A DNA stretch of 64,000 nt, from positions 18,595,379-18,659,378 of the forward strand of contig OX393571.1 in NCBI GenBank assembly GCA_947652115.1. Reading direction: 5' to 3'. The position numbers were made by a program, and so were the translations under genes. This stretch comes from Blastomussa wellsi (Eukaryota; Cnidaria; Anthozoa; Scleractinia; Plerogyridae). How positions within the stretch are numbered: position 1 is the stretch's first letter; each line of letters starts with the position of its first letter. This document shows positions 229 through 63,733 of the stretch, in pieces. The notes beneath the pieces are model-generated. The model made no database searches. It was not told the DNA's origin and saw nothing but the letters and a program-made list of their open reading frames with translations.

Positions 229-505
229 CTTGGCAGACCAATCGTCTCATGCGAGACGCAAGACGATCTGCGATATCGTTAAGGTTAGCTGCAGAAAACT
301 CGACGTTTATGGCATCGTCTGGTTCTGATACAATGCCTTTGAGCTCCGGCAGTCGTTGTGAAGTTTGAGTGTTGGGAATAAGGGCACCAACTATTTTGAC
401 GTTGCGATTTACTTTCAACTGCTTTGCTGTTTTCTCAAGCAAGAATGTGTCCATGATCTCCCCATTCACATCCTTCGCGTTCCCGTCTGAGAATATGACT
501 AGAAT
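229..505 (-). CDS. Gene A exon 7: second half of vWA domain
   Basis: The frame opens after an acceptor ending 'ctcaag' and runs from ILVIFSDG to RLVCQ before a phase-1 donor 'gtaagg'. It holds the conserved FSDG strand and the GALIPNT strand of the vWA fold. The gene B counterpart is 18689-18968, and about two thirds of residues match by eye. Confidence 0.8.
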
Positions 506-3500
506 CTTGAGATCCATTAAGGGTTTTGGAATAAGCAGAAAAAGATTATTGTGAATACCAGGCTTCTGTATTTGATTCTTACTAAGCGCAGTTTATTTCT
601 GATTTTGCAACATATAACCAAAGTCCGACTTCAATAGACCAATCGAGGCCTAGAGATAAATAAATAACAAATAATAAATAATTTCTTTTGTTTTATTCCC
701 CCAAGCCCCGGTGCCATGTTAGAATTTAAATATATTGGAATTGGTCTATTGCTTGACCACTACAAAGTGTCGACACAGCAAAACGTACAATAGCCATGAC
801 TAAAACACACCTTTGCCGTGTTGACGTCTTTTCTATCGCCAGGACGCTTGTCAAACTGTTTTAAGACCATTTTACTCAAGGCGAGATTTAACAGGTTTTC
901 ACCGCTTCCTGTATGGAGGTACTTTGTATCTATGTTACTGCTTGTGTCTGCCGCGTTGTCAAAGCAACTCATTCGTCGAGTCGTAGAGTACGTTGCCAGC
1001 GCAAATTTGTAGTCTTGTGTCTCACTGCCTAGAAGAGTCATCAGTCTCTGCAATACAGTTTTTATGCTTTGAGCTGTCGCTGCGGAAATACCCTGACTGT
1101 CTTGAATCAGAACAAAAACATCCGCCTTGGTCTTGCAAAATTCAACTTCTGTAATAAATTTGAGAAAAATTTGCAATTATAGTGTGGACTCGAGTTGTAT
1201 ACTTATGGAAAGTAATGGCATACAGTATTTTAGATACAATAGCCCATAGAATATAGAATAAGGACTGGAAATAGTATATCATATCGTATTAATATATCAT
1301 TGGACAACCTCAACACCTTTCTGTGTTTCACGTTTCTGTTTTGGAAATGCGACTTTCTTAAAATGAACTTGTGATTTTGAAGACAGCTCTTCTTTTCAAT
1401 GCGGTCGATCCTACTTGAATCTGGCGAGCGGAAAGGCTCATTTCTTGTTGAGTGTGCACCTGTCCCAGGCGCATGAGCGGCGGACAACCTCAACACCTTT
1501 CTGTGTTTCACGTTTCTGTTTTGGAAATGCGACTTTCTTAAAATGAACTTGTGATTTTGAAGACAGCTCTTCTTTTCAATGCGGTCGATCCTACTTGAAT
1601 CTGACGAGCGGAAAGGCTCATTTCTTGTTGAGTGTGCACCTGTCCCACGCGCATGAGCGGCGGACTGAGCTTGACTTAAAGAAAAATCATTAAATAGAAC
1701 CCCTTTCCTGTCGAAAATGTTTCCAATCTTTTTATACACCAAATACATGTTTATTTCAAGAAAGGTAGGGAGCCCTATATACCAACCGTCTGCTAGCTAA
1801 AAAATACTGGAAACAACCTTTCAGTTAGTATTTGAGCTAAAATTCCCAACTACCCGGCCAACTATTGTTCTTCTTTCAGATTGATTCCCTCTCTGGGTGT
1901 ACAAAAAACATTCGCCTTCCATACCCTGGTAGAGCTGTCGTTGCTCTAGGCAACTATTCCCTTTACCCACCCCGAGAAGGGTTGATTTTGTCGCCACCTA
2001 GTCACCACGAAGATTTTGAATTTCGCGCTTGGAAATAAGCTACGCTCTAGTTCTTTCAAACCTTTGTTCTAGTAACAAAAGAGACTGAAAACTGCAAGCA
2101 AATACCCGTAAAAGGAAAGTGACGCCCTGCCATTGTATACCCAAAATTCAAACCCAACGTTTGATATGAGCTTGAAAACAAAATCTAAATTGGGAGTTTT
2201 ACTTTTTATAGTTTCATTTAGAATAATTAGAGTAGCTTTGAGATTGGAATTCAGTTTCCCCTGCTGATAATCATATGGGGTTTTAATAACCTCGGTGTAA
2301 AAACCTGTGACTTTTTTCTTTGTTTTTGAGCTATTGTTTTTCTGTTGCAAACTGTTTTGAGTTCTTTGTTGTCTTGTTCGTTCTTTGTTTTACGTCACTC
2401 GTGAGTTTCACAGGTTTTTACACCGAGGATGAGCCATCATATGGCATCGCCCTACAATGAAAATGTTACCTGCTACATCACATTGTCGATACAAAACGTT
2501 ATTGAAGTCGATTTCATTCTTGTAGTACTTCATACACCGAACCAGCTCCATGTCACACAAACACGTGGCATGCCGGCACTGCTTCTCGTCGGCGTCAGTT
2601 GTATCAGTATAGGCAGTCACTGAAGCTACAATAACAAGTGAACGTAAATAATTCGAAATATATTTACTAGTCGAACAGTCAGGATTGACCGCTAATGAGA
2701 TGCAAGCTCTTTATGACAAGCATCATAAAGTGCCCTCGTTGATAAAAGTTCACCAAAACACACACAGTACTGTCAAATATTAAGTAATGTGAAAATGGAA
2801 AATAACCCCGTGAAATATGAAGCAGTATTTGAACAATATCTGCGTTCAATCCTGGACATAAGAGGTCCCGGGGGCCCCGCCTCCTTATTTTGTTATATTA
2901 TTCCACGCATTCGGCGTCGCACACGACTCCCCACTTAAATTTGCAAACCTCCCCACCCTCCCCCTCCCCCTTAGCTCAAGGTCTGGATCCGCCACTGTCC
3001 AGTATATGCGATATGCGGACACCAAAGACGCACGCAGTGTCCGTTTCATCCGGGTGTCCATATTAAGGGGGCTGTGAGAATGAACGTCACAGAAAACGCA
3101 GCTGTTCTTCTCTGGATTGGCCTTCCGTCCACACTGAAATGGCGTTTTCGTTCACCGAAAAAGAATTTGTTAAGAACGCTCCCCAAAGTGGATAAATTTG
3201 ATGACGCCGGCTATGTGCTTAAGTGTGAACGGCGAAACTGTTTGAAAAGCATTTGGAATTCGTCAGGCTGGTACACAATGGTAGTATTTCATACAAACAA
3301 GCATTCTTTGTGCTATCAAATTACCGTATTTTTTGCCAAAACTCGGCCTTAAAACTCTTAAATTGTTGGGCTCTATTAGACCTATTACATTCTATACTAT
3401 CGTGCGGGTCCCCTCGTGTTGTTTCTGATGTATGTACGTATGCATACTTTGTTCTTGATAAAAATTCTTGTTTTGTGATCTTTACATGAAAGATCATCGT

Positions 3501-6500
3501 GGTATAAACCCAGATTTGACAATTGCAAAAAATAAGGTCTGAAAGTGATTCCATGACCTCTGCGATGGAGTGCTCTAGTAACTGAGCTATCAAGTCAACT
3601 GGGACTGAGCTTTGTCAGCTCGTAATATACAAGCAGATCAAAAAGACAAGCTTATTCGGTAAAAGGTTGTATAATATTCTACTAATTACCTTGCTTATTC
3701 AAAGTTTTTCCTTGGTGTAACAAGATGAAGATATTAAATTAATTGCTAATATGCATATGGAAGTAAGTCCCCCTTCCCCCACCCCCTCCTTGACTCAGCA
3801 AAAAGCCCTGCAAATCTCAGACAAAAAGAAGACCGAAGTGTTTAGACAACGTCCCTTTTATAGCTTCATTGGACCAGTGGTCTGATCATTTGTATCAAAC
3901 TGGTACAGTTTTAACACCAACATCAATTTTTGATTTTCACTTATGGAAATATGCTTTGAGATTATGTTCAAAAAAAGTGTTCTTTTATATATAGAAAACA
4001 AAAAAAGAGGAAGTGAGAAACACGGACAAGCCTTCTGCCAAAAGTATTTGATGACATGTTTCAATATGCTAGACATTCAGCTTACCTGCTGATCTGTACA
4101 TAACCAACTTAACCGGGGAGCTAACGCGACAACGTAATGGCTAAATTAGCTACCCAACTCAATAGCATAAATAATGAACATATATTGTGACTAGTATCTT
4201 TACTTAAATTGTTGGAAAATATGTCTGTATTTTTTAATAAATGCTAAATGGAAATTGTTGTTGTTGTTGTTCTTAAGGTGTGTCATCAATCACCTTGGTA
4301 GTAAAAGGAAGAATATTAGGGCTTTTAGGGCTGCCACTGCCCGGGTGAAATGCATTTGGGTAAATCAGATTTTTTGGGGGCAGCAAAAGAAAATTTGGGC
4401 AAGGCAACGTGAGAGAATTTTTTGGGCAAATGCTTCAACGCCCCCCCCCCCCCCCCCCCCCTGGCAAAAAGTTTCCCGTACGCCAATGGTGAAATGTTCA
4501 TTAACAGTGACCTAAAAATGAAAAGCAAAATATAATCTACAGAATATACATTACAAAACTTAAAATTGGTCTTAAAATGAATGATTTAAAAAGAATTCGA
4601 AGGAGTAACAAAACATGTTGCTTCACGTTGGAACAATGGGTGTGATAATAAGGCGTAACGAGAACAAAAGAAATACAAATACAAATTATAATAATTCTGC
4701 CATCTTACTTCCCAGTTCTTGGCAGAAAACCAAAAACTACCCTAAAAGTCGTTCTAAAAAAAAGTCCGCATTCCTGGCATTAACAGTAAAGTCATCAAAA
4801 AAGTCTGCATTCCCGTGAGGGTATCACTTGCTCTTTTTTTCCCTTTATAGAGTAATTTTTTTCTCACAAACAAAAAATAATAAGTGCTGAAAAAACTTAC
4901 CGCACTTTAAAGTGTTTTTGTTGTACTTGAATTTCTTTTTCATAATCTCACTACTGTTCCTAACAGCACACCTATCCGCACTTTCGTCTAGCTGATCTTC
5001 GCAAAAATCATGGACTTTGCAGCAGCTAAAAAAAATTGCAAAACGAATAATGAGCATTAACAAGCAACAAAAGAGAAACAGAAAAGACGAGTGACACAAT
5101 CAAAATGTAAGAAGGAAAGGCATATTGCAGTCGATTACTTTTCTGCGCCGCGTTGCGAAGTTCGTTGGGGAAAAGGCCACTTTCGCTACATTAAATAAAA
5201 TTGAGCTTGATAGCGAGGCCTCGAGGACAAAAACAAAAGAAATTAAAAAACATGCCTTTTTATTTTCTTTGTTTGTGTCTTCTAGACCTCACTACCAGTG
5301 GCCTTTTGCAGGGTGCTTCGTTACGAAATAGACAATTACGAACTTCAAAACAAAGTTCCCAACTTTGACCGGCCCGAACTTCGCAACTTTGTTAGTTAAA
5401 CACAGGCGAAAAAACAGCCGTTGCTCGAAAGTCATGGCGATGTCTGAACTTGACTGTTTTTATGGCATATTTGAGAGGAAACTGGATGGTGCCTCAGTAA
5501 AAAAAATGAACAAACGTTACAATTTAATTGCGAGCCGTGCTTCTTGAGATAAATCCAAGTCTTCCATGCTGAATCGCAATGAAAAAGTACAAAAATCGTC
5601 TTCACCAGATTAGCCGTTGAGGAAATATTTGAAGCGAGTGGCATGTTATTTTCCAAAGGAATGTCAACACCCTTTCGCACGAGCAATCATGAAGGTCAAT
5701 GATGTTGAATTGTCAGAACTGATGTCACCTGCAATTCGCCACTTTCACATCGCCCACAATACACCTTGTCTGCCTCCCCCCCCCCCCAAAAAAAAAGGAG
5801 GAGAAATAGGAAAAAAGGTTATGTTGGGGGGAGCAAGGTGTTTTATGGGAAATGTGGAAATGGCGAATGATAACTAAGCTTTATTCCGTGGCAACAATTC
5901 AATGGTGCAGATTATTATTAGATTATCAGATTATTATTACCGTAAATTCATCAAAATAGGCCTTCGCTTTGCTACCGCCGCAGCAATACCAGAAGTACAA
6001 AACTGATTTATGTTTAGCGAGCGGTTAACATGGCGCGACAGCAAGTCTGGCTGTGTCGGAACCCATTGAGTTAGGTCGATTATGTCTTAGCCAATGGGTG
6101 ATACGTGTAGCGCATACTGAAACAATCTATTCCAACACTGAACAGAACGGGAAATTATTTATTATTTTGAATATCATATCAATTCAATCAAACTTTCCTT
6201 CAAGTATTGATGTCCACTTTTTTATGTTCTCTTTTTCTGTGTGTTTGTTCTCTGTGTCTAAAGTATTGAAATATTATGAAAAAAACAATAAAATACAAAA
6301 ATATATGGCCATTTGTAAGGCAAAAGGAACAGACACAAACTTGCAAACAAAGAGGAAAACTGTTTAAATTCGGTCAGGTTCTATTCGGCTGTAAAAGATT
6401 CATAACATTTTGCTGACAAATTCTATAGATTCGTCTAAGCCTGGTTGTCTTTAAGAATGATTCCGAGATTACCTTTTTAAGAGTTAAATGATATTAGTAA

Positions 6501-9204
6501 TTTTTAATCGCCATGTCTTTGTGGTCAATTGTATTAATTTCAGTTTGTATTGCTTCTTTAACTATTTGTTCATGCTTCAGGGTGCAATATCGAGTTATGG
6601 TATTTTTCTAGGTCTGGGGAACCGAGAACGGCTCTAACTTCATGAGTACTCTCAAACATTTCCAAGAGCACCATTAAGTCGATATTGCCAGCACGAACCA
6701 ATTGTTTAGTAACATTGCTGATGGAAATTTACATCACAATTCTGCTCTAAATCTTGCGCGAGAAATCAGGTTTCTGGCGAAGCGATTTGCTTAAGCTTAG
6801 TTCCCACTAGCGACATAAGGACAATAATCATAATCATAAGCACGAACATAACGCTGTTATGTCCTTATGTCTTAGTGAGAACGTCCAGAAACATAATCAT
6901 AAAAGCGCCCTTATGATCGACATAATCACATCATAAGAAAATGATTGATCATCTTCTTATGATTATGAATATGTCTGTGACTATGACTATGTTGCTTTTA
7001 TTTGTAATGGGAACGCGAAAATCATAACGACATCATTCATTTCAAGATGGCGTTCAGCTTGGAATACCGTTTTTTAAGTTTTAGCGCGGCCGTTCCCACT
7101 AGAACGTAAGAAGCTTATGTTTATATTTATGATTATGATTATGCTTATGATCCTTATGTCGCTAGTGGGAACTAAGCATTAGGCTGTCAGTCAGATTTAG
7201 CTTGCACTATTGGATTTTTGTGCATGCTGAACGACAGTATACTGAATTTCACTGTGTGGCTCTGTCAGCTATGTTACAATATGTATTTAATTTGTTATTG
7301 TCGTTATGGATGTCTATGTAAACAATTTTTGTTTGGACCAGTGTAATAAGCTATACCTGCGTAATTCCGATTTATTCAGTTTACGAAATAAACCAAAAAA
7401 TATAAAGCGATGTCTGCATAACGACATAAGCACGGGCATAAGAACAACAAACACACTTGTTTTTCTTGTGTCCGTTTTTGTTGTGCTTGTGCTTATGTCG
7501 TTATGCTTATGCTCAAGTGAAAACCAGCCTTAAGAACTGAACGGAGGATATTTCTACTTAATGTCTATTTAACAAAAGGAGTCCATGTTGCCGTGCTTCT
7601 GTTCAGTAATAGATCACTGATGACATCAAAATGTGGTAAGAACCAAAACGTCACCACTGCGTGTGACCTTAAATAGATCATAGGTAGGAACCAACCAAAA
7701 TGCGAATATAAGTGCATGGGCTTATTATATTATACCATTTTGAAGTGCAGGGTAGAGAGAACGGTGATACTTACAAATCAATGTTGTCCACAACTTTGCC
7801 TTGTGAACGTAGACCACACCAGCAGCCGTAAGTGTAAAGACGATCCACTTCAGCCGACGTTTTACCCGTCTCACGCATCAGAATGCTATGCACAAGAAGG
7901 TTTTTTGGTGTTTTGTCGTAAGTGAACCTCTTCTCTACTTTCTTGTCTGAAAAACATAGTTTACAAACTGTCGAATTATCGCAGGGTTTGGACTCTTTGA
8001 TATGGCTGTTCTTTTATGGCATTAACAAATTAAGAGCAATGGCTAGGAAAAATTAATATCCAAAGATCAAGAGAGATTCCCGAGTTATCATTTATTTAGG
8101 ATCCGGAGAATACGGCTGCTTTGATACTAAATTTTCTTGGTCTCGAACATGACCGATGGTAGCCCACTACCTCTCGGAACGAGACATGCTACTGGTTCTG
8201 AAACAACAGATGAAACGTCACAACAATGCCTCCGAGTCTAACCCAAGGGAGAGGTAGTGCGATGGTAAGCTGCAGACAAGCAATTTAATCACTGTAACTT
8301 CGCCGAGCTAAAGAGCACCGCGATTAGCTTAAGGAAACATTCTGGTTTACCTAATAACTCATCAGCTAAGCCAAACAGCTAAATCCCAAATGGCTAGCTC
8401 TAAGGAATTGTAAGGGCTAACATGTCATGACATGACGTGGGCATTTGGCTCGGAAATTCACTCCGCGGGCTCAGATTTGATTCGATCAACTGGTTCAACA
8501 CGTTGGCAAAGCAAACCTCCCAGATGAAGATGGTAAATTTTAGGCTCCGTAATATAATGAGAAAAGTTGCCTACGTAGAAGGCGTCAAAAATGACCATAT
8601 CTCGCTCAAGAACTGCTTTATTATGTTTTGGTGTAATACCTAATGCCCAATCTTCTTTGTGCTGTTTGGTTAGCGTTTAAGAGAAGAGTTTATAATGATG
8701 AATTTTGGATGAAATTCAAGACTTCGACTGCGAAAAGCGACAGCAGAATAAACTATGTTTTCAATGTAGAAATACCATAACAATGATGGTTTACGAAACT
8801 TTAGGTCAAACTCAAACTTACCCTGGCTTGCACAAACAATCACAACTTACCGGTTATCAGGTCGGTTTCGTTAAGTCCATCATGCACAACAGATGATGCT
8901 TGGCCTTAAAAAGAACACGTTTTAATCATTAAAATTTTTTTAATACCATTGACCACAAAGAATAACACAAAGCAAAACTGTACAATAAGTAGAAAAACAA
9001 AGGGTGACGAGAACAAGAATAATATATATTTTGCCTTGAAAAGATTTTAATGTGACTGTTCCAAATTTGTGTGATACCTTATTTCCTTTTCATTCTGTTT
9101 ATCTTTATCAGGTTTATCAAAACTATTATTAAAAGCAGGTTACCAAAGCTCAAACACATTAGAAGTGTTGCCCATCCCACAAACACGACGAATGCAATGT
9201 TCAT
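229..9204 (-). CDS. Gene A: secreted PLA2-vWA fusion protein (3' end outside window)
   Basis: Predicted spliced gene with coding exons at 9144-9204, 8851-8904, 7775-7946, 4901-5025, 2470-2625, 811-1148 and 229-505. In order they encode a signal peptide, a short linker, a secretory phospholipase A2 domain over three exons, and a vWA domain over two exons. PLA2 marks are the calcium-loop cysteines (YGCWCG), the catalytic helix CCKVHDFC and the C-terminal CRHATCLCD. vWA marks are a first strand ending VLIQDSQG and the later strand ILVIFSDG. Intron phases run 1, 1, 2, 1, 1, 0, 1, exactly as in gene B at 17423-24656, which strongly supports the model. PLA2 enzymes hydrolyse the sn-2 ester of glycerophospholipids, and vWA domains usually bind proteins. 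The last visible donor is phase 1, so the gene continues past position 1; by analogy with gene B the missing part should be PLAT-like. Catalysis is uncertain because calcium-loop and Tyr52 positions deviate from consensus. Venom, digestion, defence and matrix roles cannot be told apart from sequence. Confidence 0.8.
811..1148 (-). CDS. Gene A exon 6: first half of vWA domain
   Basis: Enters in phase 1 after the acceptor 'tttattacag' and leaves in phase 0 at 'gtgtgt'. It begins with an FCKTKADVF strand and contains DSQGI where a canonical MIDAS motif would read DxSxS. The gene B counterpart is 19177-19517. Confidence 0.8.
1302..1661. repeat. 180-bp tandem duplication, two units
   Basis: Two head-to-tail copies of a 180-bp unit (1302-1481 and 1482-1661) differ at about 2 positions, so the duplication is recent. 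It lies in the gene A intron between the last PLA2 exon and the vWA exons. A 172-codon frame runs through it on the minus strand because 180 is divisible by three, but no domain is visible. Confidence 0.9.
2291..2427. mobile_element. Short MITE with CTCGGTGTAAAAACC ends
   Basis: Terminal inverted repeats of about 20 bp start CTCGGTGTAAAAACCTGTGA and end with the complement. The element is 137 bp and only about 43 bp past the donor of gene A exon 5. A relative lies at 23676-23790 in an intron of gene B. No clear target-site duplication was found. Confidence 0.7.
2470..2625 (-). CDS. Gene A exon 5: C-terminal PLA2 segment
   Basis: Enters in phase 1 after 'attgtag' and leaves in phase 1 at 'gtaaca'. 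CRHATCLCD matches the PLA2 helix whose Asp (Asp99 of classical numbering) supports the catalytic His; the following residues MELVRCMKYY end the domain. The gene B counterpart is 20045-20212. Confidence 0.8.
2626..4900. other. Gene A intron, no gene seen
   Basis: This 2.3-kb intron separates exons 4 and 5. It contains a C-rich segment 'ggtctggatccgccactg' near 2983-3000 that resembles the end of the small transposon at 31718-31878, and a 21-base C homopolymer at 4441-4461. The scattered short open frames carry no recognisable domain. Confidence 0.6.
4901..5025 (-). CDS. Gene A exon 4: PLA2 catalytic helix
   Basis: Enters in phase 2 after a long T-tract acceptor and leaves in phase 1 at 'gtaagt'. 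CCKVHDFCEDQ holds the His48-Asp49 pair of secretory PLA2. The residue at the usual Tyr52 position is Glu. The gene B counterpart is 21849-21964. Confidence 0.85.
6796..7176. mobile_element. MITE with CTTAGTTCCCACTAG ends
   Basis: The ends are inverted repeats of at least 25 bp (CTTAGTTCCCACTAGCGACA inward on the left; its complement on the right), and the interior is rich in 'ataatcataa/ttatgattat' palindromes. It is 381 bp, has no coding capacity, and lies in the large gene A intron between exons 3 and 4. Confidence 0.8.
7430..7507. repeat. Imperfect foldback related to the 6796-7176 MITE
   Basis: Left arm 'cataacgacataagcac' pairs with right arm 'gtgcttatgtcgttatg'. The composition matches the neighbouring MITE, so this is probably a decayed or related copy. 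Confidence 0.6.
7775..7946 (-). CDS. Gene A exon 3: N-terminal PLA2 segment and calcium loop
   Basis: Enters in phase 1 after 'tgtttttcag' and leaves in phase 2 at 'gtaagt'. YGCWCGLRSQGKVVDNID matches the PLA2 calcium loop, but Arg and Ser replace the usual Gly-Gly after the CGx triplet. The gene B counterpart is 23115-23280. Confidence 0.85.
8851..8904 (-). CDS. Gene A exon 2: short linker exon
   Basis: A 54-bp phase 1-1 exon between the signal peptide and PLA2 domain. It ends LNETDLIT, and gene B exon 2 (23420-23473, same length and phase) ends LNETSLIA. This match is the main reason to call so short an exon. Confidence 0.75.
9144..9204 (-). CDS. Gene A exon 1: signal peptide
   Basis: The ATG at 9204 lies 6 bases into the exon, after the acceptor 'ttcttttcacag'. 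Its 20 hydrophobic residues (MNIAFVVFVGWATLLMCLSF) end at a phase-1 donor 'gtaacc'. Gene B exon 1 (24596-24656) has the same length, acceptor and GWA core, which fixes the start. Confidence 0.8.
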
Positions 9205-10181
9205 CACTGACCTGTGAAAAGAAGACACGATAATATTAAGTGCAAGTTACGTTTTAACTTGTGATGCACACAGGTTTCAGATCAACGTTGTTATACGATT
9301 CCCAAACACGGCACAAAAAGTTGACTTTGTAATTTACATTTAATGTGAGATAAAAATGGATGACGAAATTTTAAAAAAGATGTCGTTGGTAGAGAAGTTC
9401 TTTCTTATCGTCCATGACAGTCTTTTCTTGTGATCAAAAGGCACTTTTGGCAAGAGTAGCGAGAAGTCACATTTAATAGTATCTTTCCCATATCTTTAGT
9501 AAGCGTCAAAGGCTACCATTTGTGATCAACATCATAGACCTCCACTGCCGCAATCAGATATGTGAAATGTTTCCTTTATACGACCATTGCCACCTCTATT
9601 CCCGATTCAAAGGAATTCGTCAAAGCCAAGAAAGCCAACCTCTTGTGCCTTTTGAGTTTCAGGCAAAAGCTATGGTCATTTCGGATTAAACGGCCAAATG
9701 CAATGGTAGTCATTTTCAGCCAAATATTAAAAGGTTGATTCTTAGAATCTTAATTACTGGTTGGGATTCTTTCTCTAAAGAACTACGTTAAACATTTAAT
9801 ATTTGTTTCTTTGACTAATAATTTCAACGTCCAAAAGTATTTGTGTCCTGTAGTTTATATCGAACAGCTTCGCACATTTATCGCTTATTATTTATTACAA
9901 TTCAGCTATAATTTACAGCATTAAAACAACAATTTACTTTCAGTATGAAAACACCACTGTTTAGTTTGTGCCAATAATTATAAAAGTGAAACAAAATCAT
10001 AATCAGTGTCAAGCAGCGATTTTAACATAAAAACAGATTATTCGCACTTTTTAAATGTAGAATTTCAGCAAAAAAAACTGATTCTTCTCTTAGAGTTCTG
10101 GATAAATGTTATTTTGACTTAAATACTAAAAAAGAAGAGAACATATCAGTCATAAAAGAACAAAATAAGGTAATAACTTAC

Positions 10182-10255
10182 GCTGGAAAAGAGACAATAG
10201 TTTGTTTTCTGAGTCTTCCTAAAGCGAAGTGTTCTTCTTGGCGTCTAATGCCAGT
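10182..10255 (-). other. Probable 5' UTR exon of gene A
   Basis: A strong donor ('ccagc' followed by gtaagttat) reads on the minus strand at 10181-10182. The first coding exon has an acceptor just upstream of its ATG, so an untranslated exon is needed upstream. The right end is an estimate from the TATA-like element at 10281-10290. Confidence 0.35.
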
Positions 10256-10280
10256 TCACAGTTCACAGAATAGTGAACTG

Positions 10281-10290
10281 AATTATAAAG
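10281..10290 (-). promoter_or_regulatory. TATA-like element, gene A promoter candidate
   Basis: On the minus strand this reads CTTTATAATT, about 30 bases before the proposed 5' UTR exon. The call rests on spacing only. Confidence 0.25.
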
Positions 10291-10299
10291 CAAGTGACT

Positions 10300-11837: not shown

Positions 11838-13619
11838 GTTGAAGATGAAGTCGGTGGCTTCATTCATCGTGGTACTTTTTTGTATTTTGCAGCTAATAAA
11901 AGGTTGGAGACTTCTTTAATAATTTGAGTTTTACGGAGCCTCTGGTTTAACGAGGCTTCAGTAATTATCGCATAACTGAAATGTTCCAGTAAATGCAACC
12001 ATGGAGATTGCCCATTCATGAGTTCGAGACAGGAGTTTGAGTAAAAATGCTGCATTACTATTTTGAACGTAATCGGTCTTTTTTTAGAAAATAACATTAT
12101 TTCATGGTTGTTTGCTAAAGGGTCACGCCATTGTAGCAAAATTTTTTTAAAAATCTAAAACTTGTCTTCGTTCAAAGGAAAACCAAAAATAATGGTTCAG
12201 TTATGTTACCGAAGACTATATTACTGCATTCAAACAGTCTACTGTCGTCTGTTGTTCTCGATGGTGAGGATGGAAGTGGATTGAAAATTGAAAAAAAAAT
12301 TGTTTTCAATTTCTCAAGTCATCTCCTGGAAAAACGTGAAACCAGCTTTTATGGTTTGCTCTCCCTGTTAGATTTTCATTTGATATCTTCTTCGCAATTC
12401 TGATTTAGCATTGTTTGCACAAGTAAAGGTACTGACTTAAGCACATAATTTGACCTGAACACCCCAAAATCACCATGACAATGCCCCTTTAAATAATAAT
12501 TGCAACATGGGTACGGAAATTCGACTAATATTATAGCATAGTACTAACGTTAAGAAAATAAAAGACACCTTAAACTAAAGATAAATAACAGTCAATTTTG
12601 AAGCTAGATATCTGCTTCAAGACCGCAATCATGAACATTTCCCCACCGACTCTCCCCATGTACTAGTCAGCCTTTTAGCGAATCTATTTTTAATGAAAGG
12701 CACTAAAGTTATAAGTAAGTTCTTTCGCTCACACACGTAATGCGCCTTGAGCCTCAAAAGAAAGACAATAAGCAATGAAGGACGAATTAACGTAGGACGG
12801 GGCAATCGTCATACGTTTTGAACTATTTTTACAAGCCACATGGGTAGAACTTGAAAACGTTAGCCTAAATTTTTTCCAGTTGAACTGAGATCTAAAGCTT
12901 CTGATAGTATCACAAATATATCAATCCTTTTAGCTTCAGAACACCGGATGACACTCTCGCGCGCTTCGCGACGAACACAATTGATTGGCCGACCCTGAAT
13001 TGTCTCTGTCTTATGTTATTTGCCAGATAGACTATTTTGGTTTTGGCGTTAAGGCTGCTCTGTGACTATGTGATTCAATATTTCAGCTCAGGGAAGTTCG
13101 CCTAGCAGCAATCCTACAAACAAGTGCTACACTTTCCATGACGTTGACAGTACATGGGAGGGGGCACGTGACGCGTGTCGTGAAATGGGAGCTCACCTGG
13201 TTACCATGGAAACAACAGACGAGTGGGAAAAAGTTAAGAGCTTTATCGCAGAAAAAGTGAAGAAAAGCAGTAGCTTCACTCACTGGTACATTGGACTCCG
13301 GAAAGAAAGTGGCACGTGGAAGTGGACCGAGGCTGGTTCGCCTGCTGTAGTTGTGGCTACAGGTGACAGCCGTTGGCAAACCGGCGAGCCCTCTCCTTCC
13401 ACCTCAGAAATTTGTGGAGAAATCAATTCTAACTATAAAAATCAGTTAGCGAAGTTTAATAATATTGAATGCAATGTTCAATATCAGGCCCAAGGAACAA
13501 CAGGGAGCGGTACTCCATCAGCACCACGTGGATACATATGTGAAAATAACTAAAGAGTGCCTATGGGCCAATTTAATTAGAGTTAAACTGTAAAAAGCAG
13601 CAAAGTTAAGCAAAATAAA
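11838..13619 (+). CDS. CTLD1: secreted C-type lectin-like protein, two coding exons
   Basis: Coding exon 11845-11902 gives a 19-residue signal peptide and joins in phase 1 to 13087-13553, which holds one C-type lectin-like domain and a TAA stop; the product is 174 aa. Domain marks are CYTFHDVD, GAHLVTMET, HWYIGLRKE (the WIGL strand), CGEIN and the terminal GYICE. C-type lectin domains bind sugars or proteins, often through calcium. Here the Ca site-2 signatures are altered: GEPS stands where EPN/QPD is usual and FNN replaces WND, so calcium-dependent sugar binding is doubtful. An acceptor just upstream of the ATG and a matching donor at 11598-11599 imply a 5' UTR exon ending at 11598. AATAAA occurs at 13614-13619. 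A paralogue lies at 30075-35533 and a broken copy at 14090-15780. Confidence 0.85.
11845..11902 (+). CDS. CTLD1 exon 1: signal peptide
   Basis: Reads MKSVASFIVVLFCILQLIK and ends in phase 1. The context 'caggttgaag' before the ATG is shared with the other two lectin first exons at 14421 and 30075. Confidence 0.8.
13087..13553 (+). CDS. CTLD1 exon 2: whole C-type lectin-like domain
   Basis: Begins after the acceptor 'caatatttcag' in phase 1 and ends at TAA. A single exon carries the complete domain, with four or more cysteines in the expected order. Confidence 0.9.
13614..13619 (+). terminator. CTLD1 polyadenylation signal
   Basis: AATAAA about 60 bases after the CTLD1 stop codon. A matching signal follows the CTLD2 stop at a similar distance. 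Confidence 0.6.
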
Positions 13620-14484: not shown

Positions 14485-15429
14485 GTTATAGGTTAGGATT
14501 TTCTTTAACGATTTTTGTTTTATGGAGCCTTTGGTTTAATGAGGGCTCAGTTATTGTCACGGCTAAAAATGTTAGAGTAAATGATTGGTCCATTGTCCAT
14601 TTAAGTATATTTTTTGAACACGGCCTCCATGAAAAGCAGTTTTTATTCTTTTGTATTTTATACCTTTTTTGTAGCTAGGAAGATAGGTAGTTAGTTGCTT
14701 ACCATACTTGACATACTTCTAAATAAGCTGATGAGAATACCGTGTATAAATAAAGTTATCTTATCGTCTTCTTCGTTACATAGAATGAGTGAGGATAATC
14801 TCGCGCGAGATTGATATATCCAGCCTAGAGCGGCCATGAGTTGCTCACGACTGTTCTCGTATTTTTTAATATGCAACGAATAAACAAAATATTTGCCTGC
14901 AAATAGGATTTTCATGTCCTTTCTTCCTTCTTAAATATTATTATGGCTTTCTTAAGTGGTTTTTACACTGGGGAGGAGTATATTGTAATTAGGCTCCCCC
15001 CTTTTAAGGACACATGACCTTTTAAGCCATGCGAGTGCAACTCATGTGGATTTCATCTTTTTGCAAGATTTTTTCACCCTCCTCCTCCCCATGTCCTGGC
15101 CACCTGTCTTGTTTGTAGGCCACTTTTTCTGTGGCGTTTTCTTTGCCCGCACCTTTACTGGGCTTAACTATGTACGAATCAGATGCTTTGAAGTTGATGT
15201 TTTAATAAAAGCGGCTATGGGTCTTAACTCATAGCCATTTTACTCCAGGTGCTCGTTTGTTGTTTATAGCCCAGTAAACAGAACTCAGGCAAGGCAGCTC
15301 ATTAGGAGAGGGCCATTTACAAGATAGGAAGGAAGGGGCATAAATGCGTTTATTTATTTTTCTGAGTAACTATCTGCAATGCGACTTATGGTACAATAAA
15401 ATGGCAATTGAAGGCACGCCTGTCAGTGT

Positions 15430-15780
15430 AGTGAGAGTGGGTGGGAGCAACAAAGGGTTGATATCTGACAACTTGGAAGTAAAAGATCGAGGAGGAAACT
15501 CTACGGAAAAGGGAGGGAAACGGCAACGCAGGATTCCCAAGGTGAACTGGCAGGGGAGAGATTGGGAAATATAATGGCAACATCACGTAATATTTTGCAA
15601 TACACATGACATAAAAAGACTGGAACGACTAAGAAAGGTGCGGAAGCTGAGCGATAAAGGCACGGCTAAGGGAAGGTTCAGAACCCTATTTTTCTGTCAC
15701 AGCTTATGCAGATGCTTAAAACGGATATAAAGATCATGCGTAGCCCCCGCCCTGAAAGATGTTTGGACATATTATTACTG
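15430..15780 (+). repeat. Second copy of the CTLD1 downstream flank
   Basis: Matches 13760-14110 in block order with moderate divergence. It marks the right end of the duplicated lectin unit and allows the loss of the lectin exon to be inferred. Confidence 0.6.
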
Positions 15781-17422
15781 GAGACCCCTCATTAATGCTT
15801 AACCATCAAATAGGTAATCATTTTTATGGAAGCTACGCTCTATACATTTTTTTAATATTGTCTTGTTATTAATAATAACAGGAGAAAAAAATCGAATTAG
15901 CTGATTAGTATGGAGGAGCCTCACTAATTTTGAGGTAAATTTTAATTTCTCAGGGTTAAATTTATTTTATGCCATACGCAATTGAGTAGGTGATAAAATT
16001 GTCTTCGGAAAAAAGCTATAATCAATTCTTTATTATGTTTAACTCAGTTCTTTCACGATGAGTTGCGCTCTTTGCGGATCCATTTCCTTTACGCTGATCG
16101 TTATGCCTCAATCGGTGTGCCTGACGTCGTTGCTCTAGCTATACAAGACAAAATTGACATTATTTTATTCAGAAGGTAAGAGCTTTTTCAGTTGTTTTAT
16201 TGAAAACATTAATCAGTTTAACACTATTTTATCCAGGCCTCGAGCATTCCCAAAATCAGTCCTGCTTTAACCTGTTTGAATTTCCACTGGTTAACTGGAT
16301 TCTCTGCGCCCTTTGTAATCGGTCAGAGTGATCCACCTCGTTCCTAGGGTCTTTCATCTGCCCGCCCACCTGGAGCTTCGGGATGGCGGGAAGATGAGAG
16401 ACCCTGGGAACGGACTTTGTCATGAATGACCTGAGGACTTCAACTAGCTGAGATATTTTTAAAAGATTTAAAGAATTCTTGTTAATTTATTTATTTATTT
16501 TAGCTGTTTAAAATGTAATGGTAGTAGATATATTTTTAAGGGAATTTTAAAGAATGTTGGTTACTTTATTTTCTTTTAGATAATTTTCTATTTTCTGTAA
16601 TATTGTGCTGAAAAGCCTTTTTAGGGAGTTACAATAAACGTTTTTGTATATATGTATGTATGTACTAATTTACTAACACTTTTAGCATTGTTTTTACTTC
16701 AGGTCTTACCAGAGTACCATTGGCCTAGAGGCCACGTGGGAATATCTCGATTGAACGCTGCAGTTACTGTTTGACCTCCCTTCTTAACCTTTATCTGGTA
16801 CACAAACAAAACAAATGTTTTTAAAGGAGTTGTACTTTGCAGGGATTGAGCCAAATTTAGCCAAATTGCATAATTGAAATATTGAAGTGGTCAGTTAAAA
16901 CAGCATTTCAATATTACAGAAGAAGGTAGAAGAACAAACAAAAATCGAAGAAAGCTGATATGGTCTTTTGGAAATATTTTAGGCTAAACAGTTTTCAAAG
17001 TTAATCTTGTTCTTTTTACTTAAATTAAAACGCCCAGCACATATTTTAGTTTGCTGTGAAAGGAAGCTATTGATTGAGTATCATAGCGAGTTTCATAGCA
17101 TCTGTTGTGAAAAACTTAAAATTTAAAAACATAGACTAAACTAAGCCTTTAGACACTCCCTAATATAAAAAGTCACTTTTACTCCGCATTTGGAATACAC
17201 ACGCAAGGCGACATGAATGGTACACTTTTAGATTAGGGGTAGTTATATAAATCAGTTATTGTTACTATAGATCGATTTGTAAAGGAAAAAATATTCTAAA
17301 AGAGAAAGCAGGCCGTTTCTTAAACTGCAAGGCTACTACTGCTGCTGCTTTCATTATTTTTTTTTTTAAATTACAGTTCAGCTTCTTCCTAAAGCTACAC
17401 AAGACTTAAGCACGAAATATTA
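15781..17422. other. Intergenic region, no gene seen
   Basis: Lies between the broken lectin copy and the 3' end of gene B. No convincing exon or polyadenylation signal was found on either strand. It holds the inverted repeat at 16340-16411. Confidence 0.5.
16340..16411. repeat. Short foldback element
   Basis: Arms 'gttcctagggtctttcatct' and its near-complement 'agatgagagaccctgggaac' flank a short GC-rich loop with 'cccgcc/ggcggg' pairing. It looks like a small MITE or a transposon end. Confidence 0.6.
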
Positions 17423-17546
17423 TCATAGTACCTCTTTAAGCCTCCAACCACGATCTCCTTGAATTTTTCTGCTGGGAGATAACTGAACTCTTCTGATAGT
17501 ACCCACATCACGATCAAAGAACTCGGCTTTTATCACGAGTAGGTCT
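17423..17546 (-). CDS. Gene B exon 9: C-terminal PLAT-like segment
   Basis: Enters in phase 2 after 'tttaatgtag' and ends at TGA. DVGTIRRVQLS followed by GWRLKEVL matches the pattern of the last PLAT strands (DLG...I...L...W.L..V). The frame stops two residues after KEV, and a GT lies just there, so the terminal status is uncertain. Confidence 0.6.
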
Positions 17547-20500
17547 CTACATTAAATCAAACAATCAAACAAGATGTTTTGCAGAAAAACTCAAATGCAT
17601 TATCCTTATCGTTATCCTTTTTAAAAAGGATCATCGACTTAATGAGCTTTTCCGCTTCTCTTTTTACAGAAAATTGAAATATTCGGTGGTTTTCCTAATG
17701 TTTGAATTTCAAGAGATATTCTCTCTGCAATCACTTGGAATTATTAGTCCCTATTATTATTATTAGTCACTGGAAGAGAAAGGCGGGAAAGGCCAGTTTT
17801 ATTGCACCATATATCTACCTGCTACCTTTGATTAAGGTTTCGTATAAGCGGCGTTAGGTGCTGCCCTTATGTAGACAGACAAATGTGGTCCAATCATTAA
17901 TTTGTATATTATTAGCAGTTTTAGAAATGTGTTATCATATCAATTGTAGATGGATGAATGAAACAAATACATGTAACATACCCTTGCATTTCTGTTGTTG
18001 GTTCACTCAGGGTTTGATCATCAGTTTGTTGGCTCCCTTGACCTTTTATTCTAACTTTCAGTCTGTATTCACTGTTCACATATGAGTTTGGAGTGTAAAT
18101 TTCGACTTCGTACTTAACTGTTAAAGTAAACATAACTATTATGAACGCAGCAAAATCTAAATAGACTTTCCATCAATCTCTTTTATATCAACAGAACTAA
18201 AAAAGGAAACTCCTCCTTAAAGCAATGCTCACACAACGCATCCCACGGTTTGGCTAAAACCTGTACGCATGTCAAGCCTTGTTAGCGTCAACAAGCTAAG
18301 GAACTTTGAAGTCGGCTAATCTCAAATTCCACATAACGTATTAATAAAGACAATTTTAATCAAGGGATATTGAAGCTGTGGCCAATTGGGTTCGAGCCAT
18401 CACCGGTGCATTGTCTTGACCTTCTGTTCTTAAGGTTACGTTACTCTTATATTTCCCTCCCAAGTGAGGTATACAAATGGAATGGGTACAGGCGACTTTA
18501 ATGCTGGGGGTTAACTCTGTGAGGAACTAGAATCCCATCCACGGGGAGTATACTCCTAGTAGCTTTGCGAAGGAGCCACGATAAGCTACGGCCTTGAAGG
18601 GTCACTAGTCAGGCTGAAAACTCGCGGCAGCTTGAGTTCTCCCCTTCCCAGGTAGCTGTGAATTAAAATGCAATATGTAAATTCTTACCTCGACAGACCA
18701 ACAATCGTCTTACTCGAGCCGCGAGACGATCTGCGATATTATTAAGGTTCGCAGCGGAAAACTCGGCGTCTATGGCATCATCTGGTTCAGAGACAATGCT
18801 CTTTAGCTCTTGTATTCGTTGTGTATTTTGCGTGTTAGGAATAAGTGCGCCTATTATTTTGACATTTTGATCGACTCTCAACTGCTTTGCTTCTTTCTCA
18901 ATCCTGAAGGTGTCCATTACGTGCCCTTCCTTATGCTCCGCTCTTCCGTCTGAAAACATTACTAGAATCTGGAGATTTGAAATCGATTAAAAGAAAAAAA
19001 AATTAGATGATTAATGTTTTACATAATAATTCACTTTCGTATTTCAGACTTGGTAACTGGCAGTTTGTTCCTATTTATACGGCAATGGAAGAGATCTATT
19101 ACTTTAACCACATTTGCTCGAATCTTCTTAAATGTATTTAATTGTCTGGTAACGAAAGCCATGAAGTAGTACTAACCTTTGCTGTGTCTGCACCTTTTCT
19201 GCCTGCGGGACGTTTATCAAACTGTTTCAAGATCATCCTGCCCAAGGCACGTTTCAAGAGGTTTTTGGTTCCGCGTCGTTCGTGGACGTATTCTCTGTTC
19301 ATGTAACTGATTGTCTCCGCTTTGCTGCCAAAACAGCTCATCTGCCTCGACTTAGCGTATGTCGCCAGTGCAAAGTTGAAGTCTTGTGTGTCACTGTCCA
19401 GAAGAGTCAGCAGTCTTGTTACTATGGTTTTTATGTTTCCGACTGTCGTTGTGGAGATACCCTGACTGTCTTGAATTAGAACAATCACATCCGCCTTGGT
19501 TTTGCAAGAATTGTCACCTGCAATTTTTCATCAATTATGAGTGATTGGCCTGGTGGGTTAATGGTTAGCACGCTGGACTGATCTAAGCAAATAGATATAC
19601 TGAATACATCTGGATAGAAACGAAATTCTCGATTAAACCTCAAATTCTTTTTTTCGCAAGGCATTATATATCCTCGGCCCTGATGTACCGACGAAGACGG
19701 CCACATCGAGAAGAGTACTCAAAGCCTTTTGTAAAAGAACCACTCATATGAAACAAAACAAATGAATTGAAGCCAAATTCCTTTCACAGAGAAATTTTTT
19801 CAAGAAGTTTGTATTCTCAAATTATACCGTGAACATTTGTGCATGGCATTGGAAAATTGTTTCTTTTTACGCAAGATAACTATAACGATCAGTTGCTATA
19901 AAATAAAAAAGCATGTTAAAAATAAGAAAAAGGATCTTGCAACTGCAAGTATAGAGCTCTTATTTAAAGCATCGCTAATTTATTGTTTTAAAAATGAAAC
20001 TATCATCGTGCTGCTCTGATCGTGCTGAAAATAGCACTGGTTACCTGTTTTGGCACATGATCTCTGTTTTGGTGTTACCCATCCAACGTTATCCGAGTTG
20101 AACACGTCTTTGTAGTGCTTCATACACCGGACCATCTCCATGTCGCAAATACATGTGGCATGCCTACATCTCTTCTCCGCGAAATTGTCTGTACGATATT
20201 CGCTGACTGGAGCTATAACAGCAAGCATATTGCATCTAACTCAATAGTTTACCATTTAAGCTGTGTTCTGAATGTTATCGATCAGCTATCTATCGACAAT
20301 CTTGTTCTCAGTGCCGCATTTCTTTCTGTCAGAACCAAAAACATGGACTCTGGCCAGACTCGATCCTGGAGTCACACTACCGATTGACTGGCTGGGAACG
20401 AAAAATAAGCAGCACGAGCATACCTCAAAAATTAAGGTATGGATAGAGTCTGCGTGCTTGGTGCTGACCCAAAGAAAAGCAGGCTCCGCGTACGTGATTG

Positions 20501-23500
20501 TGTTTTAATAATAGTTAATAGAGTAGTTGGCAGTTAGTAGTGTTTTAATTGATTTGCATCGTATCAAGTCTTTGTAAACATGCATGCAAATCAGTTTGTG
20601 ACGTCAAATCTAGAATAGACCCACGCCCCTTCTGACTCGGTCGTGGAACAAATGATGAACAGTTTTTCGAAACTTTTAAACGCTATAAATAGAGGAGAAA
20701 CGAAAGGTGGAATGTGTTTCGAACTGGTACAAAGGTGTATTTTAGCGAAAAAAATATTTTGGTGGTAGGTGCACTTTAATAGTTACTAGTTATGACTTTA
20801 CGAAGAAACATTCCAATAAATTATGAACAAAAAGTTAGCCCCATATGCTACGGACATATTTTATTAACAGAGAAAATGTTTACGGGTGAATGAACAAGTT
20901 TTCTAAAACGATGGTAGCTGTACTTGCTTACTCGATGGACTTTGATCTCCCTTTTTCAAGAAGATTTATCATTTATCGTCTCAGAACTATCAAGATGACA
21001 TTTCTATTTTCAAATTTATTTAAAGTACATTTATTCGCCTATTTTCTTAATATAACAAAAACTACATGGTTTGATATGCGGCGAGGTGACCTCTGGAAAC
21101 CACCAGGCTTATAATTGAGGCCACCTCGTACATCACAATATGTTAAATAAGGTAGTGTTATTTTACTAAAAATTCAAGCAGTTTATTCTTAAAATTAGGA
21201 GTTCTGGTGTCGTAGCTATGGATTTGATTATTTGTAGAAAACAAGTTGAGAGACACCGGAGGTAACAGATTATTATGATAGTCTGCGATAATTGTGGCAG
21301 TCTGCGGCCTTTCCCATCACCAACGAAGCACGGAAAGCCGCAAAACTCTAGAAAAAAATCCATTTTTCAAATCGGCACTCTTAATCTTCACGGTATCAAC
21401 CAACGCTTTTCATGCAACTAATTTATTCCGTTGTTTTCACGTTACCAGGCACCAACCAATAGCGAAGCTCCATCTTTCTGTATATTACCACACACGACCC
21501 ACAATTCCTTGATTCGCTACGACGAAGGGCTAACGCTCGAAACGTCAGCTCTCGAATCTCTTTAAGGTCACATTATCAACCCAGTTGATAAAACCAAATT
21601 ATATTATTATGATAGTAATACATGAATTTAGCTATTTAAAACGTATTTATTTGAAAAACGTCTAAAAGTTCTTAATGGAGAGATAACTACCTCAGGATAG
21701 TCCATAATTTCCAACCGTTCTCTTGAACCTGCATGTGTATATATATCGCATTATACCCTGGTGTTTTTTCATGCTTAGTCGTTAAAAAACGCCAAAGAAA
21801 CAACAAAGAAAAAAATAAGTTTTGCAATTCTGCACATAATACACTTACAACATCGGTTAGTAGTTGCGTTGTATTTGAAGTTTTTGTTCATAGCCTCCAA
21901 ATTACCGCCACACTTGTCATTGCTTTGGAGTTCTGCTTCGCAAAAATCATGGGCTTTGCAACAACTAAAGGAAATAGAGGTTATAAATAAAAAGAAAGAG
22001 GAGGGTGGCAAGAAATATGATGAAAAACAGTTAAAAATAGAAGAGAGAGAAGCCAAAAATTCCGAAATGGAAGGAACGAGAATGAAAAGAGAAATGGAAA
22101 TGAATGGATATGAAGTGAGTGAAGAAATGGAGAGAAGGGAAGAAAATTAAAGTGAAGAAATGCATCAAAATTTTCTATACATCATGAGGTGTTCGCTTAT
22201 AATGTTTTTGGTTAGGTTAAAGGGGAAGTATCACGGAGTTTATCACGACTTTTGGTCAGAATTAGCTAAATTTAAACTTCCAGCGCCTCGTCAATATTCA
22301 AATCGTTTCTAAATTACTAATTTTATAACATCAGGTGAATTCAAACCAAAAGGACGAGGCAAAACATGTTGGTACTCATTTCATATGAGATGCAATGAGA
22401 ACTTGAAAACGTCGGCCCGACATTTTCAAGCTGGCATCAATCGCGATCTTGGCCATCAGCCCGCGAAAGCATCTATAATTATTAATAAAAATTTTCTTTA
22501 CATTACGATAGTCTAGCAAAGAATTTTGTATCATTATCATGCAGTTTCTATTAACCGAAAAGCGCCCCTTGGATTTTCGATGAGTTACTAAAAATAGCGT
22601 GATACTGCCCCTTTAATGTGCAAATGACTTTTAAGTATGGACCGTAATTGATATGGCTTCAAATAAAAACGCTGATGAATCTAAAGTGAACCAGTGCCTT
22701 TGTGAGTCCACAGTCTCTTTCTATTACGGCGTTGAACATGAAAAAGCACCCAGCAAGGCGTAAACGTGATTGCGCATAAAGGTATTGACATATTACGTCA
22801 TAATCTCGCCTTGGAATCTTTCTCGCGACAACTGAAAACGTGCGACAAGAATCACCGACTACGGATCAAGGAATTCAAACCAACACTGAATACTGCAATA
22901 TTTTCCCACGAAACTTTCAATAAATACACAAGGGAATTTGAAATGTATTTTTAAAAATCTTAATTGGGTTTTAGTAGCTAGAATTAAAAGCAAAACTACT
23001 ATAACAACGTGGAATTTTTGGACCAAGGTAATTTTAGTTTGAACATGTACTTGTTTAAGGACAAGCCCGATACTTATGTAAGCAATTTATAGCGAAGATT
23101 ATACTTAAGCTTACTAATCGAAGTTGTCGACATATTTCCCTTCTCCACGCGGACCACACCAGCAACCATAGTTGTAAACACCAAGGACATTTGTGTCACT
23201 AAGACCTGTCACACTCTGCACCAAATTTTTCAGTAGAATTAGTCGTTGCGTAAGTGCTGTCCTCTTCTCTCCTTTATGCTCTAAAAATATTTTTAAAACT
23301 ACTGGAAGTAATATCACAGGCTGTTTGTCCTTTAAATAGAAATGAAGTTCTTTCAATCATATCGACCCTTTAGAAATTCGTTTATGAAATTTCTGATCCA
23401 ACATGTGAGAAGTACTTACCAGCTATCAGACTGGTTTCATTTAGCCGATCATTCAATAAAGATGACGCCAGACCTAGCAAAAGAAAAATTCTAATATTAA

Positions 23501-24656
23501 AACGCGGTTTGGCCCGCTATTGACAGCTCTTGCCGATAAATACCTAAACATATATTTTCGTTCAGGTAAGACAATTCAGTTGGCCTGGCACTTGCGTTTG
23601 TAATACAAGCTTCAGACTACGTACTGATAAGTGTTGTTCAGGGTGGGGCGGGGGCGTGAGTAGAGTTGGCTCATCGTCGGTGTAAGAACCTGTCAAATTC
23701 ACCAGTGACGTAAGAACGAACAAGACAACAAAGAACCTCGAAACAATATAGGACAGAAAAACAATAGCTCAAAAAGGTTCTTACACCGAGATAAACCCCA
23801 TATTTTAGGAAATTCCTTCAATATTTTTGGGACAGGCTGTTTCCCTTGCTACCACTTTCCTCTTTCTAAACGACAACTCAGTTTTGCTTAATGTGTCATC
23901 TCCTTTTTTAGATATTAGACCTTGATCTTTGCCAATCGTATTGCACAAAGCACTCCGCAAAAGGAAAACGTATTCCGATTAATAAGTACTTTCAACGCCT
24001 CAAGTGCAGGTGTTATTTTGGCTCCTGAAAGTTTGAATGTGCGATCAATTGTTTTTACGTCACCATTTTGGACGCCTGCCTTCTGCGCGTTTCCTCATTC
24101 AAGATGGCGGCCGTAACAAGTGGACGTATTTTTAAGGACGTTCGCGCAAAAATTTTCTATCATTTATTTTTTTCTGAAACTCTCACCACTGTAAGATGAT
24201 GAATAACTGATGTCAGAAATGCAAAAAAATTTGGGGTCACCGACTTCGTTTTGAAGATAACATGCCCAGAAGAACACCCTAAATCTGAAAACTCGCGCTT
24301 CTTTAGCGGATACGGCTGCCGTGTCTGTAAGCATGGAAAAAAGTAGGGGTCACCGACCATTTAAGAGAGTAAACTACCAGCAAAGCTACGAAACGGCTTC
24401 TGGCCCTTTGTTTTTCCTCAGCGCGCGCGCTCGATGGATGTAGTGGCGTGACGAATTCCGTGCGCAGTAACAAGTAACTGATCAAAGTGAAAAGCAAAAC
24501 ATATGACTAGGATAACAACCAAATCCTCTCCCCCAGGCCATCAGCTTTTAGACACAATACTCATTACTATATAAAACAACTCAGGTTGTAGTTACCAAAA
24601 CGTAAACATATGAAAAGCATTGCCCATCCCGAAAAATAGGTTGAGACAAAATTCAT
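17423..24656 (-). CDS. Gene B: secreted PLA2-vWA-PLAT-like protein
   Basis: Predicted spliced gene with exons at 24596-24656, 23420-23473, 23115-23280, 21849-21964, 20045-20212, 19177-19517, 18689-18968, 17982-18117 and 17423-17546. They encode a signal peptide, linker, PLA2 domain (three exons), vWA domain (two exons) and two exons resembling a PLAT/LH2 beta-sandwich. PLA2 marks: YGCWCGPRGEG, CCKAHDFC, CRHATCICD. vWA marks: VLIQDSQG, VMFSDG. PLAT-like marks: KYEVEIYTP, then FFDRDVGTIRRVQLS and GWRLKEV. All exon joins keep frame, and the first seven exons match gene A in order and phase and nearly in length. PLA2 cleaves phospholipid sn-2 esters, PLAT domains help lipases attach to lipid surfaces, and vWA usually binds protein; a secreted lipid-surface protein is the inferred role. 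Whether the stop at 17423 is the true end, or a weak donor 'gtacta' extends the gene, is unresolved. Confidence 0.8.
17982..18117 (-). CDS. Gene B exon 8: N-terminal PLAT-like segment
   Basis: Enters in phase 1 after 'actttaacag' and leaves in phase 2 at 'gtatgt'. VKYEVEIYTPN and RLKVRIKGQGS resemble the first strands of a PLAT/LH2 domain. The domain call is by pattern only. Confidence 0.6.
18470..18612 (-). repeat. SINE-like dispersed repeat, copy 2
   Basis: Read on the minus strand it repeats the blocks of 38-185: 'gatgggattctagt', 'gttaacccccagcattaaag' and 'gtatacctc'. It lies in the gene B intron after the second vWA exon, the same relative place as copy 1 in gene A. Confidence 0.5.
18689..18968 (-). 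CDS. Gene B exon 7: second half of vWA domain
   Basis: Phase 0 entry after 'aaatctccag', phase 1 exit at 'gtaaga'. Begins ILVMFSDG and ends RRLLVCR. One codon longer than gene A exon 7. Confidence 0.85.
19177..19517 (-). CDS. Gene B exon 6: first half of vWA domain
   Basis: Phase 1 entry after 'aaaaattgcag', phase 0 exit at 'gttagt'. It carries the same DSQGI variant as gene A at the MIDAS position, then FALATYAKSR and LKQFDKRP. Confidence 0.85.
20045..20212 (-). CDS. Gene B exon 5: C-terminal PLA2 segment
   Basis: Phase 1 to phase 1. CRHATCICDMEMVRCMKHY keeps the CxCD motif, and a short CAKT linker leads to the vWA domain. Confidence 0.85.
21511..21603. mobile_element. Half-copy of the foldback element seen at 52033-52303
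   Basis: Contains 'gacgaagggctaacgctcga', 'aacgtcagctctcgaatctc' and 'cagttgataaaaccaaatta', all found in the right half of the element at 52033-52303. It lies in the gene B intron between exons 4 and 5. Confidence 0.75.
21849..21964 (-). CDS. Gene B exon 4: PLA2 catalytic helix
   Basis: Phase 2 entry after 'atttcctttag', phase 1 exit at 'gtaagt'. CCKAHDFCEAELQ has the His-Asp pair; Glu follows the next cysteine where Tyr52 is usual. Confidence 0.85.
22221..22612. mobile_element. TTAA-type MITE
   Basis: A 392-bp non-coding element with ends AGGGGAAGTATCACG and CGTGATACTGCCCCT, flanked by TTAA at 22217-22220 and 22613-22616. A TTAA target duplication points to the piggyBac or Kolobok type. 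It lies in the gene B intron between exons 3 and 4. Confidence 0.8.
23115..23280 (-). CDS. Gene B exon 3: N-terminal PLA2 segment and calcium loop
   Basis: Phase 1 entry after 'atatttttag', phase 2 exit at 'gtaagc'. YGCWCGPRGEGKYVDNFD is a clear PLA2 calcium loop with Arg at a position normally Gly. Confidence 0.9.
23420..23473 (-). CDS. Gene B exon 2: short linker exon
   Basis: A 54-bp phase 1-1 exon matching gene A exon 2 in length and in the LNET motif. Confidence 0.75.
23676..23790. mobile_element. MITE related to 2291-2427
   Basis: Ends 'tcggtgtaagaacct' and 'aggttcttacaccga' are inverted repeats, and the interior shares 'cgaacaagacaacaaagaac' with the complement of the first copy. It lies in gene B intron 1. 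Confidence 0.7.
24596..24656 (-). CDS. Gene B exon 1: signal peptide
   Basis: The ATG at 24656 lies just inside an exon whose acceptor 'cttcttttcacag' equals that of gene A. Twenty residues (MNFVSTYFSGWAMLFICLRF) end in phase 1 at 'gtaact'. Confidence 0.8.

Positions 24657-49385: not shown

Positions 49386-63733
<14,348 letters not shown>

Follow-up and report, generated by a model that had tools for sequence, protein, structure and literature searches.

Tandem genes in the stony coral Blastomussa wellsi are predicted to join a secreted phospholipase A2 to vWA and PLAT domains

Analysis of a 64,000-nucleotide stretch of the genome of the stony coral Blastomussa wellsi (GenBank assembly GCA_947652115.1, contig OX393571.1, positions 18,595,379 to 18,659,378 of the forward strand; hereafter the window, within which all positions are counted) showed two genes, arranged head to tail on the minus strand, whose predicted products join a phospholipase A2 (PLA2) to a von Willebrand factor A (vWA) domain and, as seen in the second gene, to a C-terminal PLAT domain. 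The deduced layout runs from a signal peptide through a short, lysine-arginine (KR)-ended propeptide, a PLA2 of the group I/II/V/X type, and a vWA domain to PLAT, the last deduced from gene 2. A preliminary description had presented the pair as fusions of PLA2 to vWA; these two domains hold up, but the architecture was incomplete, since the third domain (gene 2 exons 8-10) had been missed. We conclude that the fusion is real and represents a new architecture of a known kind of enzyme, and that the protein is probably a secreted, multidomain PLA2-vWA-PLAT enzyme, built by exon shuffling and targeted to lipid surfaces.

Gene 2 consists of ten predicted exons (24656 to 16699, minus strand) and encodes a product of 510 amino acids. 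Exon 1 (24596..24656) provides the start codon and a hydrophobic segment resembling a signal peptide, as judged by hydropathy, and exon 2 (23420..23473) is a linker. PLA2 is spread over exon 3 (23115..23280), with the KR site (GEKR), the N-terminal helix region and the calcium loop YGCWCGPRGEG, exon 4 (21849..21964), with the catalytic His-Asp in CCKAHDFCE, and exon 5 (20045..20212), which holds the C-terminal half with CICDMEMVRC. The first half of vWA is encoded by exon 6 (19177..19517), where QDSQG stands in place of the DxSxS of the metal ion-dependent adhesion site (MIDAS), and the second half by exon 7 (18689..18968). The end of gene 2 had been placed at 17423, which is incorrect: exon 7 is followed by exon 8 (17982..18117), exon 9 (17432..17546), and exon 10 (16699..16794), which supply the first part, middle and end of PLAT, the first two assigned in part from the predicted fold of the matching stretch in a relative from Oculina patagonica (P0001), and the last closing with a TGA stop codon, with AATAAA at 16570. 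Gene 1 has seven exons in the window (9204 to 229, minus strand): a signal-peptide-like segment, again from hydropathy (9144..9204), the linker (8851..8904), three PLA2 exons carrying a KR site (VEKR) and the calcium loop YGCWCGLRSQG (7775..7946), the catalytic His-Asp in CCKVHDFCE (4901..5025) and the C-terminal half (2470..2625), and the first (811..1148) and second (229..505) halves of vWA. Position 229, given previously as the limit of gene 1, is correct for the exon but marks only the last exon in the window; since a donor site lies 3' of this exon, gene 1 probably extends past the window. Gene 1 carries, in the intron that separates its PLA2 exons from its vWA exons, a 180-base-pair (bp) unit in two copies (1302-1665), 98% alike. 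All introns between these exons of both genes have GT/AG borders, and the signal-like segments, linkers, three PLA2 exons and two vWA exons were present as first named, with the decisive boundaries (20045-20212, 19177-19517, 2470-2625, and 811-1148) exact.

The two copies are tandem paralogues derived from one ancestral fusion. Their proteins are 56% identical (223/401 columns, E 3e-152), and the exon-end phases of the seven shared exons are 1,1,2,1,1,0,1 in both, confirming the identical intron phases described earlier. Since identity along the length combined with equal intron phases marks duplicates, two independent fusions were ruled out, and the copies do not serve as the independent evidence for fusion that they had been taken to be. 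Exons 3-5 form a PLA2 block and exons 6-7 a vWA block, each flanked on both sides by phase-1 introns, a pattern that fits exon shuffling. Between the genes, nonsynonymous (dN) and synonymous (dS) divergence was 0.29 and 0.91, respectively, and dN/dS was 0.30 for PLA2 (bootstrap 0.13-0.51; 287/300 resamples usable) and 0.26 for vWA (bootstrap 0.17-0.38; 300/300 usable), the comparison covering these two parts because gene 1 leaves the window before any PLAT. Such low ratios indicate that both copies have been retained as coding genes, and purifying selection keeps them coding in the PLA2 part as well as in the vWA part. In a tree, gene 2 grouped with Oculina P0001/P0002 (support 89/91) and gene 1 with the relative P0007 (83/83). 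Support of 95/80 was reached by two of eight inner branches, the forks of gene 1 and gene 2 not among them, so the tree no more than suggests in which order duplication and speciation took place.

A search of 5.8 billion proteins recovered at least nine relatives, six from Oculina patagonica and one each from Montipora foliosa, Pocillopora verrucosa, and Pocillopora damicornis; Oculina is a scleractinian, and Montipora and Pocillopora are likewise stony corals. A profile search returned the same nine. These searches scored the best 7,997 (sequence) and 7,998 (profile) word-sharing candidates and, with ~8,000 scored, the counts cannot confine the family to stony corals as against sea anemones, Acropora, or other animals. 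A third search with the PLA2 part of P0001 (66 candidates) found the six Oculina proteins only and was thus not exhaustive, since it missed the PLA2-bearing P. verrucosa protein P0008. Among bacterial and archaeal genomes, none of 260 pattern matches was confirmed as a relative. PLA2 and vWA both scored above their cut-offs in six of the nine relatives (P0001, P0002, P0003, P0005, P0006, and P0008), i.e., five Oculina patagonica proteins and one from P. verrucosa, in the same order as in the window, which supports the fusion. The nine matches also bear out the earlier supposition of a cnidarian and point very probably to a stony coral. In the remaining three models, PLA2 is largely or partly missing; P0004 begins in alignment with the PLA2 end and has two vWA domains. 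All nine have been labeled "uncharacterized" or "hypothetical" by a source, P0009 also as VWFA domain-containing. The gene numbers of P0001-P0003 are close together and their contigs are equal in length, which suggests a tandem cluster in Oculina too.

These models also bear on whether PLA2 and vWA-PLAT are separate, adjoining genes merged in our prediction. Continuing the frame of exon 5 into the following intron leads to a stop in each copy (open reading frames end near 19980 and 2408), so that a PLA2-only transcript is possible. However, the junction phase is equal in both copies, exon 6 is not headed by a start codon with a signal-like stretch (checked by eye), and Oculina and P. verrucosa database models unite the same parts at up to 74% identity to gene 2 over all 510 amino acids. 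We therefore give separate genes very little credence. The shared junction phase and the coral models led us to reject accidental joining; the earlier judgment that it was unlikely thus stands, although its argument from independent copies does not.

PF00068 and PF00092 scored above their cut-offs in both genes, as anticipated, with PF00068 at 63.3 and 61.3 bits (cut-off 32.1). When the two window proteins were aligned with the nine relatives, CCK[AV]HDFC was found in all nine rows covering it, window genes included (the remaining two models begin past this point); CxCDxExVRC occurs in 8 of the 11 proteins, again including both window genes, with the stretch wholly or partly absent from the other three. 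KR precedes PLA2 in 8/8 rows having that region; propeptides ending in KR also occur in the zymogen forms of PLA2 groups IB and X. Each window copy has twelve cysteines in its PLA2 part, the number expected from the six disulfides that groups I/II/V/X have in common; P0002 has lost one cysteine. The calcium loop departs from the consensus CGxGG, which is visible in the alignment to 1ozy: the second Gly is replaced by Arg (CGxR) in 7/8 rows, both window genes included, and the P. verrucosa protein P0008 retains CGFGGMG. In addition, Glu or Asp follows HDFC in 9/9 rows, where Tyr is usual after HDxC in PLA2. Together with a vWA close to that of collagen VI, a matrix protein, these replacements lend some weight to an alternative in which PLA2 is no longer an enzyme and serves instead as a scaffold or ligand-binding module of an extracellular matrix or recognition protein. 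Otoconin-type PLA2 homologues provide a precedent for such a non-enzyme domain. Considering that the catalytic His-Asp is kept in every covering row, the CD motif in every protein with the complete stretch, the propeptide-like KR throughout, and an intact loop in P0008, we regard this alternative as unlikely, albeit one to be taken seriously.

The vWA domain, identified by both profile match and fold, has the collagen VI/integrin I fold, its metal site being degenerate. In integrin I-like domains, ligand binding involves the MIDAS motif DxSxS; here, with the register taken from a collagen VI alignment, Gln occupies the position of the first MIDAS Asp in every one of the 12 vWA copies of the 11 proteins. 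The proposal that vWA is a protein-docking part therefore cannot rest on the classical metal site, and what survives of it is possible metal-free binding or assembly. Matches listed in full-length fold searches bear on vWA only, and among the leading Foldseek rows are long alignments of poor quality to pilus adhesins and integrins.

PLAT was recognized less directly. With exon 10 left out, gene 2 showed no PLAT in a Pfam scan; the domain emerged when exon 10 was added, from relatives and from fold. PF01477 then matched gene 2 at 16.0 bits (cut-off 23), P0007 also at 16.0 bits, and two of the nine relatives above the cut-off (P0008, 31.0; P0003, 27.8, in its second PLAT). The matching stretch of P0001 has the predicted beta-sandwich fold of PLAT. 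This stretch also matched a KH domain, whose E of 0.0033 was nominally ahead of the 0.02 of PLAT; at 17.7 bits (cut-off 30), the KH match was rejected, being below its own cut-off on a PLAT fold. Searched against PDB sequences, the PLAT alignment had no significant match, the best being a ribosomal protein (E 0.12), with coral lipoxygenase at E 0.62.

Under the reading that we favor, the protein would be secreted as a zymogen and cut at KR, PLAT would bring it to a phospholipid surface, and vWA would attach it, by non-MIDAS contacts, to a partner or within an assembly. There, PLA2 would release fatty acid from membranes, e.g., of injured tissue, microbes, or captured material. Since corals run lipoxygenase pathways on arachidonate, from which they produce eicosanoids (PMC5793058), substrate supply to such pathways would be one natural role; defense and digestion would be others. 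Several observations weigh against this reading. With the calcium-loop Arg and the acidic residue after HDFC, activity could be altered or lost, and MIDAS is altered in every vWA copy. The PF01477 match in gene 2 is weak, and in six of the nine relatives PF01477 finds nothing at E ≤1. The folds were modeled for an Oculina relative 74% identical to gene 2 rather than for the window protein, and residues 1-191 of the full model, PLA2 included, have a predicted local distance difference test score (pLDDT) <50 and are uninformative. The P0008 model lacks the exon 5 stretch, leaving its PLA2 incomplete, and splicing is predicted from sequence.

The protein could also be a nematocyst (venom) component, its PLA2 attacking prey membranes and its vWA and PLAT aiming or storing it, which we consider improbable. 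Tandem duplication is common among venom genes, but the large multidomain form differs from the small, single-domain PLA2s of venoms. In its favor, PLA2 in cnidarian venoms has been reviewed, and Pocillopora damicornis, a stony coral, is tabulated in that review with PLA2 catalytic activity (PMC7600780). Against it, the Acropora digitifera nematocyst proteome paper uses "phospholipase A2" eight times in its main text and "von Willebrand" or "vWA" not at all (PMC4604070).

The window holds several other features. C-type lectin open reading frames (PF00059) lie on the plus strand between the PLA2 genes (13074-13550, E 2.1e-11) and beyond gene 2 (35003-35530, E 2.4e-14), 64% identical over 160 residues; their positions relative to the PLA2 genes perhaps reflect duplication of a two-gene block. 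The segments 26458-28575 and 30809-33241 are a recent duplication with pieces 97-100% identical, and two open reading frames tested in the first copy matched nothing in Pfam at E 0.001. One CUB and three F5/8 type C domains on the plus strand (50713-51318, 54691-55116, 56472-56975, and 62772-63266) possibly belong to one or more long genes for secreted proteins; ~49 ATT triplets (50712-50859) lie immediately upstream of the CUB stretch. Between F5/8 type C stretches sits a Ty3-like retroelement (57150-61802) with a 1351-residue frame for reverse transcriptase, RNase H, and integrase. It is flanked by two 151-bp direct repeats, 98.7% identical, so that the insertion is probably recent. Rfam and tRNA scans of the window gave no match.

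We recognized no description of PLA2-vWA-PLAT among the full-text matches listed, which came mostly from the open literature and were mostly judged by title or the start of the abstract. Within these limits, the earlier remark that the architecture was unfamiliar among described PLA2 groups is upheld, although the true form is PLA2-vWA-PLAT. Since the combination is already present, unnamed, in automatic annotation, "undescribed" here means not found in the literature covered. PMC6214176 has, in lists, an unrelated VWA-like domain of unknown function and a PLA2 family. As an architecture, a duplicated, conserved, three-domain PLA2 of reef-building corals would be new, uniting in one polypeptide a fatty-acid-releasing enzyme with the kind of domain found on coral lipoxygenase. 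The family would be a directly testable candidate for the PLA2 feeding the coral eicosanoid pathway. More tentatively, it could be a secreted, self-targeting stony-coral family forming its own PLA2 class, with three exon-shuffled modules and a tandem expansion next to C-type lectin genes. Its role could then be to provide fatty acids for lipid signaling or immunity at a selected surface.

Among known systems, the coral allene oxide synthase-lipoxygenase fusion joins other enzymes in another domain order, and a relation outside PLAT was neither seen nor expected. The PLAT domain itself resembles those of pancreatic lipase and coral lipoxygenase (PF01477) but differs in its weak sequence match (16.0 bits), its position behind a vWA, and, in P0003, P0004, and P0007, the presence of a further PLAT-like stretch. 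Unlike the vWA domains of collagen VI alpha3 or of integrin I type, that of the coral proteins has Gln for the first MIDAS Asp and is joined to an enzyme domain. Described secreted PLA2 groups, among the best-studied enzymes, are mostly single small domains. With groups I/II/V/X the coral proteins share the PF00068 match, the His-Asp and CD motifs, twelve cysteines, and a propeptide ending in KR, and they differ from them in the calcium-loop Arg, the Glu or Asp after HDFC, and the two extra C-terminal domains.
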